Assembly: GCA_021161545.1 (NCBI GenBank) | Contig: JAGHAJ010000263.1 | Span: 1 to 7,407, forward strand | Source: Synergistota bacterium | GTDB taxonomy: Bacteria; Synergistota; JAGHAJ01 | DNA length: 7,407 nucleotides | Reading direction: 5' to 3' | Shown here: positions 1,348 to 6,234 of the stretch, in pieces | Layout of the letters: every line of letters begins with the position of its first letter | Numbering within the stretch: position 1 is the stretch's first letter | Program-made: the position numbers and the translations under genes | Notes under the pieces: generated by a model | Database searches by the model: none | Seen by the model: only the letters and a program-made list of their open reading frames with translations | Told to the model about the DNA's origin: nothing

Positions 1348-2499
1348 TTATATACAGGCAGGTTCAGGTATAAGTTTACCTGTCTTAAATCTATTGAAAG
1401 ACAACACATCAACAGATATGAATGGCTCTTCGCCAATGATCAATTCGGACATAATCCTACCTATAGATGGAGCAAACTGCAAACCATGACCGCTCCACCC
1501 TACATCGAGATAGAATCCCTCCACCTCCTCTACAGGTCCTACTATAGATTGAGAATCTGGTGTAATATCGTAAGGTCCAGACCATTGTCTCACGACCCTT
1601 ACATCTCTTAAGATTGGCATCTTCTTCAAGACTCTACGGCTCACTTCCTCCATAAATTGCCATGTCACACCAACATCATATCCCTTTTTCTCGTTGGGGT
1701 TATCCATACCTATGAGAAATCCACCTGTAGGTTCCTGTTTCCAATAACTGCCATCGTCTTGACAGAGTATCAAGGGTTTTATAATTCTATTAACGGGCTC
1801 TGTAACCATTATTTGGTGCCTTTCACTCACTACAGGGATATCCAACCCAACCATCTTCCCTATCTCTTTTCCCCAAGGACCAGCTGCATTGACAACCTTT
1901 CTTGTGGATATCTTACCCTTATCCGTAACCACTGCCTTTACTTTATCTTTTTCTATCTCTATATCAACGACCTTCGTATACGTATAAAACTTCACACCCA
2001 AGCGCTTTGCAGCTTCATAGTACGCAAAGGTAACACGGTGAGGATTAACATGTCCATCCTCCGCACACCAGCTCGCACCTAATACCCCTTCAACATCTAA
2101 CAATGGAATGAGCTCTTTTATCTCATCAGGATTCAGAATCTTTGAAGGTATGCCAAGGCTACTTTGGAGCCTCACATTTTCTCTAAGCTGATTAAGCTGT
2201 CCTTCGGTGTATGCAAGCCACATATAACCACCCTGCTCAAGCTCAAGGTCGAAGTCAGTATCAAGTTCCTCTTTCATCCTGATGAAGCCCTTTATATTCT
2301 CCTTTGCAAGTCTGCAGTTTATCTCAGTACCAAACTGCTGTCTTATACCCGCTGCACTTCTACCCGTCCCTCCATAGGTAAGGTATTTCTGCTCCAAAAC
2401 AACAACACCATGCATTCCTTTTGACGCAAGATGATAAGCAATAGAGCAACCATGAACTCCCCCACCAATGATGACAACCTCAGCAGAGACAGGCAGCAC
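1348..2499 (-). CDS. FAD-dependent DAO-family amino/imino acid dehydrogenase, first beta subunit (proline/sarcosine/opine type)
   Basis: A 383-residue flavoprotein of the D-amino acid oxidase fold. GGGVHG (residues 12-17) and Glu36 form the FAD-binding Rossmann motif. GTGRSAAGIR follows at about 44-53, and WSGHGLQFAP near the C-terminus covers the isoalloxazine ring. The position right after alpha, ferredoxin and BFD-protein genes is that of the catalytic beta subunit in the archaeal PDH1 proline dehydrogenase operon and in Hcn/opine oxidase systems. It would oxidise the substrate and pass electrons to the Fe-S/alpha part of the complex. The start is GTG at 2499, only three bases after the preceding stop. 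A GAGGAG site lies about 12 bases upstream, rather far, so translation may rely on coupling to the upstream gene. An in-frame stop just upstream excludes a longer form. L-proline is the best single guess for substrate, but sarcosine, D-proline and opines cannot be excluded. Confidence 0.9.
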   Translation of the reverse strand: MLPVSAEVVIIGGGVHGCSIAYHLASKGMHGVVVLEQKYLTYGGTGRSAAGIRQQFGTEINCRLAKENIKGFIRMKEELDTDFDLELEQGGYMWLAYTEGQLNQLRENVRLQSSLGIPSKILNPDEIKELIPLLDVEGVLGASWCAEDGHVNPHRVTFAYYEAAKRLGVKFYTYTKVVDIEIEKDKVKAVVTDKGKISTRKVVNAAGPWGKEIGKMVGLDIPVVSERHQIMVTEPVNRIIKPLILCQDDGSYWKQEPTGGFLIGMDNPNEKKGYDVGVTWQFMEEVSRRVLKKMPILRDVRVVRQWSGPYDITPDSQSIVGPVEEVEGFYLDVGWSGHGLQFAPSIGRIMSELIIGEEPFISVDVLSFNRFKTGKLIPEPACI

Positions 2500-2502
2500 C
2501 TC

Positions 2503-2784
2503 TTAATCACTCTCCTCTGCGAGGAGCCCAACTTTTATAGGTTTGGAAGGAGGCCTATAAGTAGGGACAGGTATTTCATCTATCCTCTTCCCTGTTATCC
2601 TTGCAACCTCTCTTATTATAATATCCCTGCAAGTCTTACCTTGGCATGGCCCCATACCAGCTCTCGTTATTCTCTTTATCTCCTCAGGGTCCGTATAACC
2701 TCTCCGTATAACCTCTCTAATCTGCCCAAGCGTCACATCCTCACAACGACAAACAATGACATCATCATCAGTAAATTTCTCCAT
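2503..2784 (-). CDS. BFD-like [2Fe-2S]-binding protein (PdhX-like electron-transfer subunit)
   Basis: This 93-residue protein is a BFD-like (bacterioferritin-associated ferredoxin type) [2Fe-2S] domain. Cys12 and Cys14 (VCRCEDV) and Cys47 and Cys52 (GPCQGKTC) give the C-x-C, 32 residues, C-x4-C ligand pattern. The segment RITRAGMGPCQGKTCR is characteristic of the domain where it is fused to the C-terminus of HcnB, opine oxidase alpha subunits and some GlpA proteins. Here it is a free-standing subunit with a Pro-rich tail (about 71-83). Its ATG follows the ferredoxin stop with no gap (TAAATG), so translational coupling is likely. Its own stop is in the same frame as the next gene, separated from that GTG by one codon. 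It probably relays electrons between beta and alpha. The counterpart in the archaeal proline dehydrogenase operon is called PdhX, as I recall it. Confidence 0.9.
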   Translation of the reverse strand: MEKFTDDDVIVCRCEDVTLGQIREVIRRGYTDPEEIKRITRAGMGPCQGKTCRDIIIREVARITGKRIDEIPVPTYRPPSKPIKVGLLAEESD

Positions 2785-3288
2785 TTATCTCACCACCCTG
2801 ACATGTCTTACATCAGCAATCATGTCCTTAGGGACATGAACTGTAACCACCTTCGTACCGTCTTTATGAGGCTCTATAACACTTCTCACCTCGCCTTTAC
2901 CAACTACCTCACCTGCGCGATTAAGAAGCTCCACTTCTTCGCCCTTCTCAGGTACAGGATAAAACTCATAAGGCAATTTCAGTAACGCATCATCGCCATC
3001 ACACGAAGCATCTACAACAAATATTGCTAATCCTGGGCATTTTGCAACACACAAAGTACAGCCCGTACACTTCTCCCAATCTATTTCTGGAAGGTCATTT
3101 ATGTCCTTAAACTCCTTTATAGCCCCAAAGGGACACGAAGCATGGCACGGATCACACGGTATCTCTTGAATACACTCTACTACTGCCACTGGCCCCTTTT
3201 TCAGCACCTCCGGAGGTGGCATTACCCTGTTTACCTCTTCCATTGAAAACACACCAGTCCTTCTTAGGTGTTCACTGAGTTTTACCAT
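2785..3288 (-). CDS. Two-cluster [4Fe-4S] ferredoxin subunit (PdhF-like)
   Basis: A 167-residue protein with eight Cys set out as two [4Fe-4S] sites. The second is a standard C-x2-C-x2-C-x3-CP (Cys74, 77, 80, 84). The first is unusual, C-x5-C-x2-C-x3-CP (Cys39, 45, 48, 52), lengthened between ligands one and two. A ninth Cys (96) follows. After about residue 105 the protein continues as a Cys-free, Val-rich region (ELLNRAGEVVGKGEVRSV) that looks like a small beta domain. It is likely an electron-transfer subunit of the amino/imino acid dehydrogenase complex, between the alpha and BFD proteins. Its ATG lies inside the end of the alpha gene (ATGGTAA, seven-base overlap), with a strong AAGGAGG site ten bases upstream. 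The ferredoxin fold is clear. The electron path is inference. Confidence 0.88.
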   Translation of the reverse strand: MVKLSEHLRRTGVFSMEEVNRVMPPPEVLKKGPVAVVECIQEIPCDPCHASCPFGAIKEFKDINDLPEIDWEKCTGCTLCVAKCPGLAIFVVDASCDGDDALLKLPYEFYPVPEKGEEVELLNRAGEVVGKGEVRSVIEPHKDGTKVVTVHVPKDMIADVRHVRVVR

Positions 3289-4373
3289 TCAACCACAACC
3301 TCCTTAAGTCCAGACCTAATCTTCTCACTCAAAGGTCCCCTTCTCAGCTCTTCAAGGCTTGAAAGAGTATCTTCTCTATCTGCTTCCCAACCATCATATG
3401 CATACCCAAGATCGCTTGCAGCAATAAGTCCTGCAAGCTTACCCTCCAGCATTGCAGATGTAGCTTCTTCTATACCAGCCACATCTCCAGCCACAAATAT
3501 ATCCCGTCTAGACGTCCTCATGTATTTATCTCTGAGGACCACATTACCACCAAGCTGTGGCACATACTTCATCTTACAACCAGCCTGCCACAATAATTCT
3601 ATTAGTGGAGAAAGCCCTACAGACAAGCATACCGTATCCACATTCAATATCCTCTTGGTAGAAGGTATAGGCTGCCACTTACTATCAAGTTTAACAATTG
3701 CAGCTGCTTCAACTGCATCTTTTCCATAAACTTCAAGTATCGTATGAGAAGTATATATAGGCACACCCAATCTTCTTATCTTAGATGCGTGGACAAGGTA
3801 TCCTCCTATATAGGGCATTGCTTCTACTACAGTAGCAACTTCAACATTAGCCTGCATAAGCTGATAGCTTACAATAAGACCAATGTTTCCAGCCCCAACC
3901 ATTAAAACCCTATCACCGGGTACGATCCCATAGACATTCATTAATGTCTGCACAGCACCTGCCCCGTACACACCAGGCAGATCGTTGTTCGGAAATGTAA
4001 GCATACGCTCAGAAGCCCCAGTTGCTATTATGACCCTCTCCGACTTTATCTTCATATACACATCCTCACCAGTCATAGCAGTAACTACACCGTCATCTTG
4101 ATAGTAGCCAGTCGCCGTAGTATTGGAGACAACCTCTATCTTGTCCTTTAGCTTTTCTATGTCAGAGAGGAGCATCCCGGCAATCTTTATACCCCTTACT
4201 CCAGCAGACTGTCTGTGAGAACCAAAGAACTTATGTGTCTGCTTTACAAGCTGTCCCCCAAGCTTCAAACCATCATCCACTAGCAAAACTTTCGCTCCCA
4301 TAGATGCAGCCGCTATAGCTGCAGACAATCCCGCCGGACCTCCACCTACAACCAACACTTCAGTTTTTCTCAA
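3282..4373 (-). CDS. FAD/NAD(P)-binding oxidoreductase, alpha subunit of the amino acid dehydrogenase complex (HcnB/PdhA/SoxA-like)
   Basis: A 363-residue two-dinucleotide-domain flavoprotein. GGGPAG (10-15) binds FAD. ATGASER (117-123) and the second glycine motif GAGNIG (160-165) belong to the inserted NAD(P)- or nucleotide-binding domain. FVAGDVAG (293-300) is the second FAD motif. There is no thioredoxin-reductase CxxC. Segments such as RMLTFPNNDLPGVYGAGA and the C-terminal RRGPLSEKIRSGL are typical of the alpha subunits of HcnABC, opine oxidase, sarcosine oxidase and archaeal proline dehydrogenase. In HcnB-type proteins a BFD domain follows. This protein stops before it, and that domain is encoded two genes downstream. 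The start is TTG at 4373, supported by AAAGGTGA five bases upstream and by the immediate Rossmann strand. It overlaps the preceding gene by 14 bases. It would take electrons from beta via the Fe-S proteins and pass them to NAD(P) or another carrier. Confidence 0.9.
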   Translation of the reverse strand: MRKTEVLVVGGGPAGLSAAIAAASMGAKVLLVDDGLKLGGQLVKQTHKFFGSHRQSAGVRGIKIAGMLLSDIEKLKDKIEVVSNTTATGYYQDDGVVTAMTGEDVYMKIKSERVIIATGASERMLTFPNNDLPGVYGAGAVQTLMNVYGIVPGDRVLMVGAGNIGLIVSYQLMQANVEVATVVEAMPYIGGYLVHASKIRRLGVPIYTSHTILEVYGKDAVEAAAIVKLDSKWQPIPSTKRILNVDTVCLSVGLSPLIELLWQAGCKMKYVPQLGGNVVLRDKYMRTSRRDIFVAGDVAGIEEATSAMLEGKLAGLIAASDLGYAYDGWEADREDTLSSLEELRRGPLSEKIRSGLKEVVVEW

Positions 4374-4680
4374 TTAAATCACCTTTCCCTATCTGAGTTT
4401 GTACCCTCATACCCTCTCTTAAAGGAGTAACACACACCCTCACATTAGGCTTACCATCAACAACCATAAAGCAGGAAGAGCATTTTCCAATTGCACAGAA
4501 AAATCCTCTTGGCCTTCCGAGTTCCGCGCTCGTTCTGTATTTCTTGACTCCTGCTGCGTGGAGTGCTGCCGCTATTGTCTCTCCCTCATATCCCTCGAGT
4601 TCCTTCCCATCAAAATAAAACTTGACTTTCCTACCTCGTTGAAAGGTCAAAATGGGATGATGCTCCAGTCTACTACTCAA
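4360..4680 (-). CDS. Small [2Fe-2S] ferredoxin-fold protein (HcnA/Fer2_4 type), first gene of the redox operon
   Basis: A 106-residue plant-type [2Fe-2S] domain. Cys62, 67, 70 and 83 give C-x4-C-x2-C-x12-C within the segment GRPRGFFCAIGKCSSC. The opening RLEHHPIL, then FYFDGKELEGYEGETIAAAL, matches HcnA, opine oxidase small subunits and the N-terminal domain of SoxA alpha subunits from its first residues, which supports the TTG start at 4680. An AGGGGGG site lies eight bases upstream. In SoxA-type proteins this domain is fused to alpha, whereas here it is a separate gene overlapping alpha by 14 bases. It has one [2Fe-2S] cluster and is expected to be a cytoplasmic subunit of the complex. It is the first gene after the only sizeable intergenic gap, so its promoter probably lies in 4681-4818. 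Confidence 0.9.
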   Translation of the reverse strand: MSSRLEHHPILTFQRGRKVKFYFDGKELEGYEGETIAAALHAAGVKKYRTSAELGRPRGFFCAIGKCSSCFMVVDGKPNVRVCVTPLREGMRVQTQIGKGDLIEKN

Positions 4681-4818: not shown

Positions 4819-5529
4819 CTATTTCGAAATCTTCTCTTCTGCAGCTGAAGCTCTGTAATACAAAGGCAAAATACTAAATGGGTCATCCAGTTTCTCTTTA
4901 AGCATGTGTGTATAAAACAGCTTTACAAGCGCGTCTGTCTTAGGAAACATCTTAAACACCACGATATTATAGGAATTAGAAGCACCCAACAGGATATTAC
5001 TATCAGCTCTTCTCCTCTCGTCCAAGATAAATAAAATTTCACGATCCCTGTATTTTTGAGCTAAGAACTGTAGCCACTTCTTTAAGTTACATAAAGAAAC
5101 ATCCTCAACACGCTTAAGCCCATCTTTTACAGAATAAAGTGCAGTAAAATACTTCCCCGAAGCGGCTGAAATAAGTGGCGAAACAAGAAACGAGATACCT
5201 TCAAATTCACAAGCAATGGCATCCATAGTTACAATGCCTTTCACAAGCAAGTTACCCGCATATGACATAGACTTTGCAATTGAAAGTGCAATCCTTATAC
5301 CAGTGAAAGATCCCGGTCCCACTCCTACTGCAATTCCTCCAAGGTCACTCTTGCCTATACCTGCTTCGCCGAGCAACTTGTCTATCAACAAGAATAGGTT
5401 TTCACCTTTTACAACCCCTCTATCCACATAGATACTTACTAAAGGCTTATTACCACAAGAAACACCTATACTGCTTATATTTGTCGATGTATCAATCGCA
5501 AGTACATAAATATTATCTCTCAAAGGCAA
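4819..5529 (-). CDS. tsaB: tRNA t6A37 threonylcarbamoyltransferase complex, dimerisation subunit TsaB
   Basis: A 236-residue actin/HSP70-fold protein of the TsaB (YeaZ) family. AIDTSTN (11-17) is the first phosphate-type loop, and VGVGPGSFTGIRIALS (68-83) is the family signature. Length is normal for the family. TsaB forms the TsaD-TsaB-TsaE complex that transfers the threonylcarbamoyl group from TC-AMP to A37 of ANN-decoding tRNAs. It is a structural partner and lacks the catalytic metal-binding His of TsaD. The usual segment after the signature (IDARxGEVY in many homologues) reads LISAASGKYFTALY here, lacking the Asp and Arg. The TTG start at 5529 has a strong GAGGAGG site seven bases upstream and overlaps tsaE by 17 bases. 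TsaD and TsaC are not in the window. It is the last gene of the right-hand operon. Confidence 0.92.
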   Translation of the reverse strand: MPLRDNIYVLAIDTSTNISSIGVSCGNKPLVSIYVDRGVVKGENLFLLIDKLLGEAGIGKSDLGGIAVGVGPGSFTGIRIALSIAKSMSYAGNLLVKGIVTMDAIACEFEGISFLVSPLISAASGKYFTALYSVKDGLKRVEDVSLCNLKKWLQFLAQKYRDREILFILDERRRADSNILLGASNSYNIVVFKMFPKTDALVKLFYTHMLKEKLDDPFSILPLYYRASAAEEKISK

Positions 5530-5986
5530 CTTTCACCCTCCTCAAAAGTTCACAATCATCCCCATTGCAGCAAACCATTATTTCAATCATCCTCACGGTC
5601 ATATCCAAATAAAAAAGACCAACTCTTACGTAAGATGATGAAATATAAGGAAGTATGCCTTCACCCCATTCCACTGCAACTATTCCAGTACCATCAAAGT
5701 AGTCCTCAATTACGTTGAAATCCTTTACTTCTATTCTGTAAAGGTCCAGATGATAAAGTTTTAGAGTGGGAGTTCCATACTCCCTTGCAAGTGTGAACGT
5801 AGGGCTTTTAACAGCATCACTTATACCCATACCCATAGCAATGCCCTTCACAAATGTAGTTTTACCAGCACCAAGTTCACCAGTTAGAAGGACAATATCA
5901 GATGATTTTAGGACTTTTCCCAGTTTTTCTCCCACAGTGATAGTTTCACTCTCACTACATGCTATCAGTTTCTTGTTCCAAACCAT
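5513..5986 (-). CDS. tsaE: tRNA t6A37 biosynthesis ATPase TsaE
   Basis: With the ATG at 5986 this is a 157-residue P-loop ATPase of the TsaE (YjeE) family. It carries the Walker A GELGAGKT (36-43), SPTFTL (61-66), the H-x-DLYR motif (79-84) and VEWGEG (105-110), in family order and spacing. TsaE binds the TsaD-TsaB dimer and hydrolyses ATP to reset it between rounds of t6A formation. The ATG is preferred over a GTG 30 bases further upstream. It makes a one-base TAATG junction with the preceding gene, has an AGAGGAAAG ribosome site seven bases before it, and gives the usual family N-terminus. The gene is followed by tsaB with a 17-base overlap, the common tsaE-tsaB pairing of many bacteria. 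Confidence 0.94.
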   Translation of the reverse strand: MVWNKKLIACSESETITVGEKLGKVLKSSDIVLLTGELGAGKTTFVKGIAMGMGISDAVKSPTFTLAREYGTPTLKLYHLDLYRIEVKDFNVIEDYFDGTGIVAVEWGEGILPYISSSYVRVGLFYLDMTVRMIEIMVCCNGDDCELLRRVKVAFER

Positions 5987-6234
5987 TACGTATCTTTCCT
6001 CTTGGAAAGATACCACTTCAAAACAAAAAACAGTATAACACCTACTCCAACTATGAAGAGAATGGAACTAAAAAAGAATCTTATCCCCACAAACTTAGCA
6101 TGAGAAGGGGACATTATTAATACTACAACGAAGACAAGGGCTATATTTATTGCCATTATAAACATACTCTTTCTTCTTGCTCTATTTGTTTTTTCAAGCT
6201 CTTTCTTGAGGTCAAATCTATTGCGAACCCTCAA
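5986..6234 (-). CDS. Small two-helix membrane protein of unknown function
   Basis: I do not recognise this 82-residue protein. Residues 1-23 are strongly basic and charged (KKELEKTNRARRK). Hydrophobic stretches at about 24-41 and 52-74 look like two transmembrane helices joined by a short loop (SPSHAKF), and a basic tail (KWYLSKRKDT) follows. By the positive-inside rule both ends face the cytoplasm. The TTG start directly follows the dapH stop, with GAGGGGAG five bases before it. An internal ATG at residue 24 would remove only the charged leader. It joins tsaE by a TAATG overlap, so it is a real member of the operon. Gene order offers no firm hint of function, although a cell-envelope role would fit its dap neighbours. 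It could be lineage-restricted. Confidence 0.75.
   Translation of the reverse strand: MRVRNRFDLKKELEKTNRARRKSMFIMAINIALVFVVVLIMSPSHAKFVGIRFFFSSILFIVGVGVILFFVLKWYLSKRKDT

Follow-up and report, generated by a model that had tools for sequence, protein, structure and literature searches.

A bacterial five-gene flavoprotein cassette with a second beta subunit: a candidate proline-type imino-acid dehydrogenase associated with HypD in Synergistota

The window, a 7,407-nucleotide stretch from a Synergistota genome, carries an operon whose probable product is an anaerobic dehydrogenase for imino acids of the proline type, with two beta subunits on one core, serving proline/hydroxyproline catabolism beside HypD. 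This reading is suggested by the association of the cassette with HypD, proline-racemase-family and aldehyde oxidoreductase (AOR) genes, by the absence of classical proline dehydrogenase (PRODH), and by shared gene neighbourhoods. The cassette is a widespread, ordinary bacterial form of a known kind of enzyme, apparently uncharacterised in these bacteria; no description of the bacterial five-gene cassette was found in the open-access literature. New here are the second beta, a correction of the family to which the cassette is assigned, and the link to HypD in anaerobes without PRODH. The operon offers a concrete candidate for proline oxidation in anaerobes without classical proline dehydrogenase and mostly without proline reductase, and the HypD link across genomes is relevant to collagen breakdown.

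All genes of the window lie on the minus strand (Table 1), in the order dapF (cut), dapH, a small membrane protein, tsaE, tsaB, and then the cassette, which follows tsaB after a gap of 138 bp. Neighbouring cassette genes overlap or sit 0–12 bp apart, an arrangement as in one operon. A promoter scan returned a single site, not above chance expectation. The five genes described in an earlier note, in the order Fer2, alpha, ferredoxin, BFD and beta, have the coordinates and domains given there, and the host is bacterial, as proposed. The range of 1348–4680 assigned to them is too short, since the cluster continues into a second beta gene and, from position 172, a gene of the ornithine cyclodeaminase/mu-crystallin (OCD) family. 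The small protein between dapH and tsaE (5986–6234) has two hydrophobic stretches and no Pfam match.

Table 1. Features of the cassette and its flank in the window
Feature	Coordinates	Strand	Support
Fer2 subunit, 106 aa, one [2Fe-2S]	4360..4680	-	Pfam Fer2_4, E 8e-31
Alpha subunit, 363 aa, FAD and GxGxxG (GAGNIG) nucleotide site	3282..4373	-	Pyr_redox_2, E 8e-39
Ferredoxin subunit, 167 aa, 2x[4Fe-4S] and conserved C-terminal domain	2785..3288	-	Fer4 matches, two Cys sets
BFD-type [2Fe-2S] subunit, 93 aa	2503..2784	-	SO_alpha_A3 (SO_alpha_A3/BFD, E 6e-16) and Fer2_BFD
Beta1, accessory DAO-type catalytic subunit (predicted), 383 aa	1348..2499	-	DAO, E 2e-76
Beta2, DAO-type catalytic subunit (predicted), 382 aa	187..1335	-	DAO, E 5e-79
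OCD-family gene, start only, cut by contig end	1..172	-	Translation matches OCD of contig C211
tsaB, flanking	4819..5529	-	TIGR03725 above cut-off

The host genome bin (1.6 Mb, 82% complete) includes a second contig, C211, which overlaps bases 2–714 of the window end to end (L044 2875–3587) at 96.4% DNA identity without gaps. This is most simply a strain variant and suggests two strains in the bin. After beta2, C211 carries the full OCD gene (PF02423, E 5e-75) and then a sodium-dependent NSS symporter.

All Fe-S motifs of the cassette are intact and invariant across relatives. The Fer2 subunit, the equivalent of gamma/HcnA/OdhC, has the cluster motif Cx4Cx2Cx12C, found in 84/84 relatives. Alpha, whose GAGNxG motif occurs in 77 of 87 relatives, is colinear with the alpha subunits of SoxA and PDH1. 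The ferredoxin subunit corresponds to gamma/PdhF and has complete Cx5CxxCx3CP and CxxCxxCxxxCP motifs, both Cys sets being present in 99/99 relatives; its C-terminal domain of ~65 residues (window 2785–2990) is conserved and has no Pfam match. The BFD subunit, with a complete CxC...Cx4C motif, is the delta/PdhX equivalent and corresponds to the C-terminal domain of PDH1 alpha. An RxW motif (FMN) is also present.

From the observed gene anatomy, cofactor motifs, homology, conservation and gene association, a substrate, direction, acceptor and assembly can be proposed. The product would be a cytoplasmic enzyme of the dye-linked type, in a superfamily with the archaeal alpha-beta-gamma-delta L-proline, bacterial D-hydroxyproline and opine dehydrogenases. 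A DAO-fold beta would oxidise a proline-type substrate on FAD, and electrons may reach alpha, which has FAD and an NAD(P)H-type motif, by way of an FMN at its interface with beta, then pass to the Fer2, BFD and 2x[4Fe-4S] subunits, with a putative exit to ferredoxin or NAD(P). For beta2, the usual type, the substrate is most likely L-proline, and that of beta1 is probably a related compound such as D-proline or a hydroxyproline isomer. The complex would serve proline/hydroxyproline catabolism next to HypD in anaerobes that lack PRODH.

Identity and tree placement identify beta2, and not beta1, as orthologous to the beta usual in relatives. Beta2 shares 71–75% identity with the betas of the closest relatives and falls beside them within the Synergistota beta clade (support 100), and beta1 falls outside it, in a beta clade of 12 rows (support 100; both in an unrooted tree made by a quick method). 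The earlier note had taken beta1 for the beta of the cassette; it is an accessory paralogue, and the orthologous beta2 had been missed. Orthology and the tree rule out beta1 as the main catalytic subunit. Beta1-type genes lie upstream of Fer2 in two loci (L026 and L037) and are the sole beta in others. The motif GWSGHGLQ in beta1 corresponds to GFSGHGFM in beta2, as in PDH1; all of the beta1 clade has GWSGHG, as against G[FY]SGHGFM in other betas where found, PDH1 included. The closest solved relative of both is the PDH1 beta 1y56_B (E 6e-77 for beta1, E 8e-93 for beta2), to which beta2 is 41% identical. Two betas on one core have been demonstrated biochemically for OdhB1-C-A-B2, the opine dehydrogenase of B. 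japonicum (PMC4575208). The best reading is that beta1 and beta2 would be interchangeable subunits on one electron-transfer core.

The separation of subunits, which the earlier note had treated as a curiosity, is the bacterial norm. The cassette is found in 20 of 41 same-phylum genomes, and 19 of 40 sampled Synergistota genomes show this split order. Scanning of genome contigs recovered more than 500 relatives. The best 80 of them, spread over Synergistota, Bacillota, Atribacterota, Thermotogota, Caldisericota and other groups, nearly all have the same gene order. An order that recurs in ~20 same-phylum genomes and these 80 further loci is not due to chance. Fer2 and BFD each have their own ORF here, as the earlier note held. 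Separate genes are seen for Fer2 and alpha in 85 of 86 loci, for alpha and ferredoxin in 94 of 97, and for ferredoxin and BFD in 95 of 98. The survey of 100 loci rules out the split form as a rarity. Since the split form is common in bacteria, it is preferable to regard the PDH1 alpha of archaea and proteins of the SoxA type as fusions.

The cassette resembles the archaeal alpha-beta-gamma-delta L-proline dehydrogenase (T. profundus/T. litoralis) in its order of alpha, two-cluster ferredoxin, BFD and DAO-type beta; T. litoralis OCC_00347-00332, homologous to pdhA-F-X-B, matches it, and that archaeal cluster likewise includes an OCD-family gene (PMC4364671). Domains and this order agree with the proposed PDH/OpnDH-type complex of A-F-X-B-like order. 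Unlike the archaeal enzyme, in which Fer2 forms the first ~120 residues of alpha (PMC4575208), the cassette has Fer2 as a separate 106-aa gene, two betas and a bacterial host. Because Fer2 is not on the alpha N-terminus, the cassette is, as judged from sequence, a bacterial five-gene relative of the alpha-beta-gamma-delta type and not a strict member. That type was compared by its published gene order and description, and PDH1 (1y56) by direct alignment. Kawakami et al. 2005 reportedly called the alpha-beta-gamma-delta type in P. horikoshii PDH2.

The label "PDH1-like" does not hold, as the features tested fit the T. profundus type. PDH1 of Pyrococcus horikoshii (PH1363/PH1364; alpha4beta4) consists of two genes, with one fused alpha and no ferredoxin subunit. 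Consecutive parts of its alpha (8–88, 110–379 and 410–492) correspond to the genes for Fer2, alpha and BFD: Fer2 plus alpha is colinear with 1y56_A residues 8–258 and 297–379, as it also is with SoxA, and the BFD profile matches 410–492 (E 3e-15), so PDH1 alpha is a Fer2-alpha-BFD fusion. Its Fer2 part has no Cys residues. Membership in PDH1 is ruled out by the alpha fusion, the lost Fer2 cysteines and the missing ferredoxin subunit.

The likeness to the Thermococcales pdhA-F-X-B order had led to the proposal of an ancestral split state or a recent archaea-to-bacteria transfer. As an explanation of the cassette this is very improbable. Among archaeal sequences 1y56_B was compared; it attaches close to the base of the bacterial betas, but on a long branch next to the outgroup, so that its placement is unsure. 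The loci recovered with A1 are almost all bacterial, and the nearest relatives of each subunit of the window belong to one and the same Synergistota group. Nothing points to a recent transfer from archaea, and the shared nearest relatives argue against one. Deep placement differs somewhat between the beta tree and the alpha/ferredoxin trees, which are unrooted and made by quick methods, and the history may have been split-first or fused-first.

Like the flavin-containing opine dehydrogenases (OpnDH; OdhABC/OoxAB/NoxAB) and D-HypDH, the cassette has a separate [2Fe-2S] gamma gene, a DAO-type beta and the RxW FMN motif, and its Fer2 gene shows the gamma pattern Cx4Cx2Cx11-12C. However, the alpha of those enzymes holds a second [2Fe-2S] motif, in place of which the cassette has a BFD gene, and they lack the 2x[4Fe-4S] subunit. 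Searches of plasmid collections returned distant relatives only (~30–38% match). Compared with SoxABDG, the betas are SoxB-like and alpha, Fer2 and BFD are SoxA-like parts, whereas SoxA itself is a fused protein of ~965 aa. SoxABDG identity is ruled out by scores far below the curated cut-offs (SoxA 157 against 1164 for alpha; SoxB 200 and 192 against 529 for the betas) and by missing genes, and PutA/PRODH identity by the lack of a PF01619 barrel.

A dehydrogenase of the sarcosine/opine type, or one for other secondary amines with no relation to proline, is quite unlikely. The nearest NCBIfam models are SoxB for the betas and SoxA for alpha/Fer2, all far below cut-off, and close betas can prefer opines (PMC4575208), but the operon has no SoxD or SoxG, SoxA is fused, and proline/hydroxyproline genes are repeatedly found close by as well as in the same genomes.

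The proline-type reading draws instead on gene content. HypD (NF043068) is present in 20/20 cassette genomes, 19 above cut-off and one truncated at a contig edge, as against 1 of the 21 same-phylum genomes without the cassette (Fisher p about 8e-11, counting the 41 genomes as independent, with no phylogeny correction). Within families f2 and f4, HypD and the cassette mostly vary together, with one exception (G024). The AOR family (20/20 against 3/21) and the proline-racemase family (14/20 against 3/21) are likewise enriched, both uncorrected for phylogeny. Classical PRODH (PF01619) is found in 0/41 genomes, with controls positive in 8/14. A second bacterial class has the cassette in 15 of 17 genomes, HypD in 12 (all among those 15) and PRODH in none. 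Within 12 kb of one genome (G010, L157), HypD and its activase occur together with a racemase-family gene, an NSS symporter, the cassette and an OCD-family gene.

Some of these neighbours could instead point to a D-amino-acid type, in which a racemase/epimerase would make D-proline or cis-4-hydroxy-D-proline, the complex would oxidise it to pyrroline-2-carboxylate (P2C), and an OCD-family reductase would return L-proline. An OCD-family gene lies directly downstream of beta2, a proline-racemase-family gene (Cys-Cys type) directly adjoins the beta1-type cassette of G022 (L156) and is found near the cassette of L157, the host's own genome has a proline-racemase-family gene too, and the heteromeric D-HypDH belongs to the same superfamily (PMC4575208). 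This route is nevertheless rather unlikely, given that beta2 is closer to the beta of the L-proline enzyme PDH1 (41%, with the common motif GFSGHGFM), the OCD protein reaches none of the curated cut-offs for P2C reductase, and the HypD route from L-Hyp to P5C needs no D-isomer step.

The preferred proline-type reading is itself weakened at several points. A B. japonicum beta close to archaeal L-ProDH is inactive on L-proline (PMC4575208), indicating that beta similarity does not fix the substrate. HypD forms P5C from L-Hyp, and no classical P5C dehydrogenase to take it up scores above cut-off in any of the 41 genomes, the host's own included. The cassette adjoins 2-oxoacid oxidoreductase genes, instead of proline genes, in several families, and some cassette-bearing genomes outside Synergistota have no HypD. 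Classical P5C dehydrogenase (above cut-off in 0/41) and D-proline reductase were rejected as partners; PrdA occurs in 2/41 genomes, both without the cassette. As a guess, AOR-type enzymes are candidates for P5C oxidation, because AOR genes lie inside the cassette in L056 and L077.

In those two loci (L056 6427–13902 and L077 6546–14074), genes for an Fe-S protein, an AOR-family protein, an OCD protein and a beta1-type subunit come after the Fer2-alpha-ferredoxin-BFD core, and the core appears to occur with a different catalytic partner. L107 (6503–10053) has a fused alpha and ferredoxin, and there a GidA/FAD_oxidored-like protein takes the place of the DAO beta. A broader proposal, improbable as it stands, is that the four-gene core would be an interchangeable anaerobic redox core for beta1-type and beta2-type subunits, a tungsten-type aldehyde oxidoreductase (L056/L077) and a GidA-like flavoprotein (L107), linking both NAD(H) and ferredoxin to the fermentation of proline/hydroxyproline, perhaps through flavin-based electron confurcation/bifurcation.

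The upstream tsaE-tsaB pair is conserved in many relatives across several families. In Bacillota (Thermosediminibacter and Tepidanaerobacter; L086 and L124), tsaE-tsaB also lies 2–5 kb upstream of the cassette, perhaps as a shared inherited or transferred block. One contig labelled Methanomethylovorans (L082) carries a Synergistaceae-like beta and is probably mis-binned.
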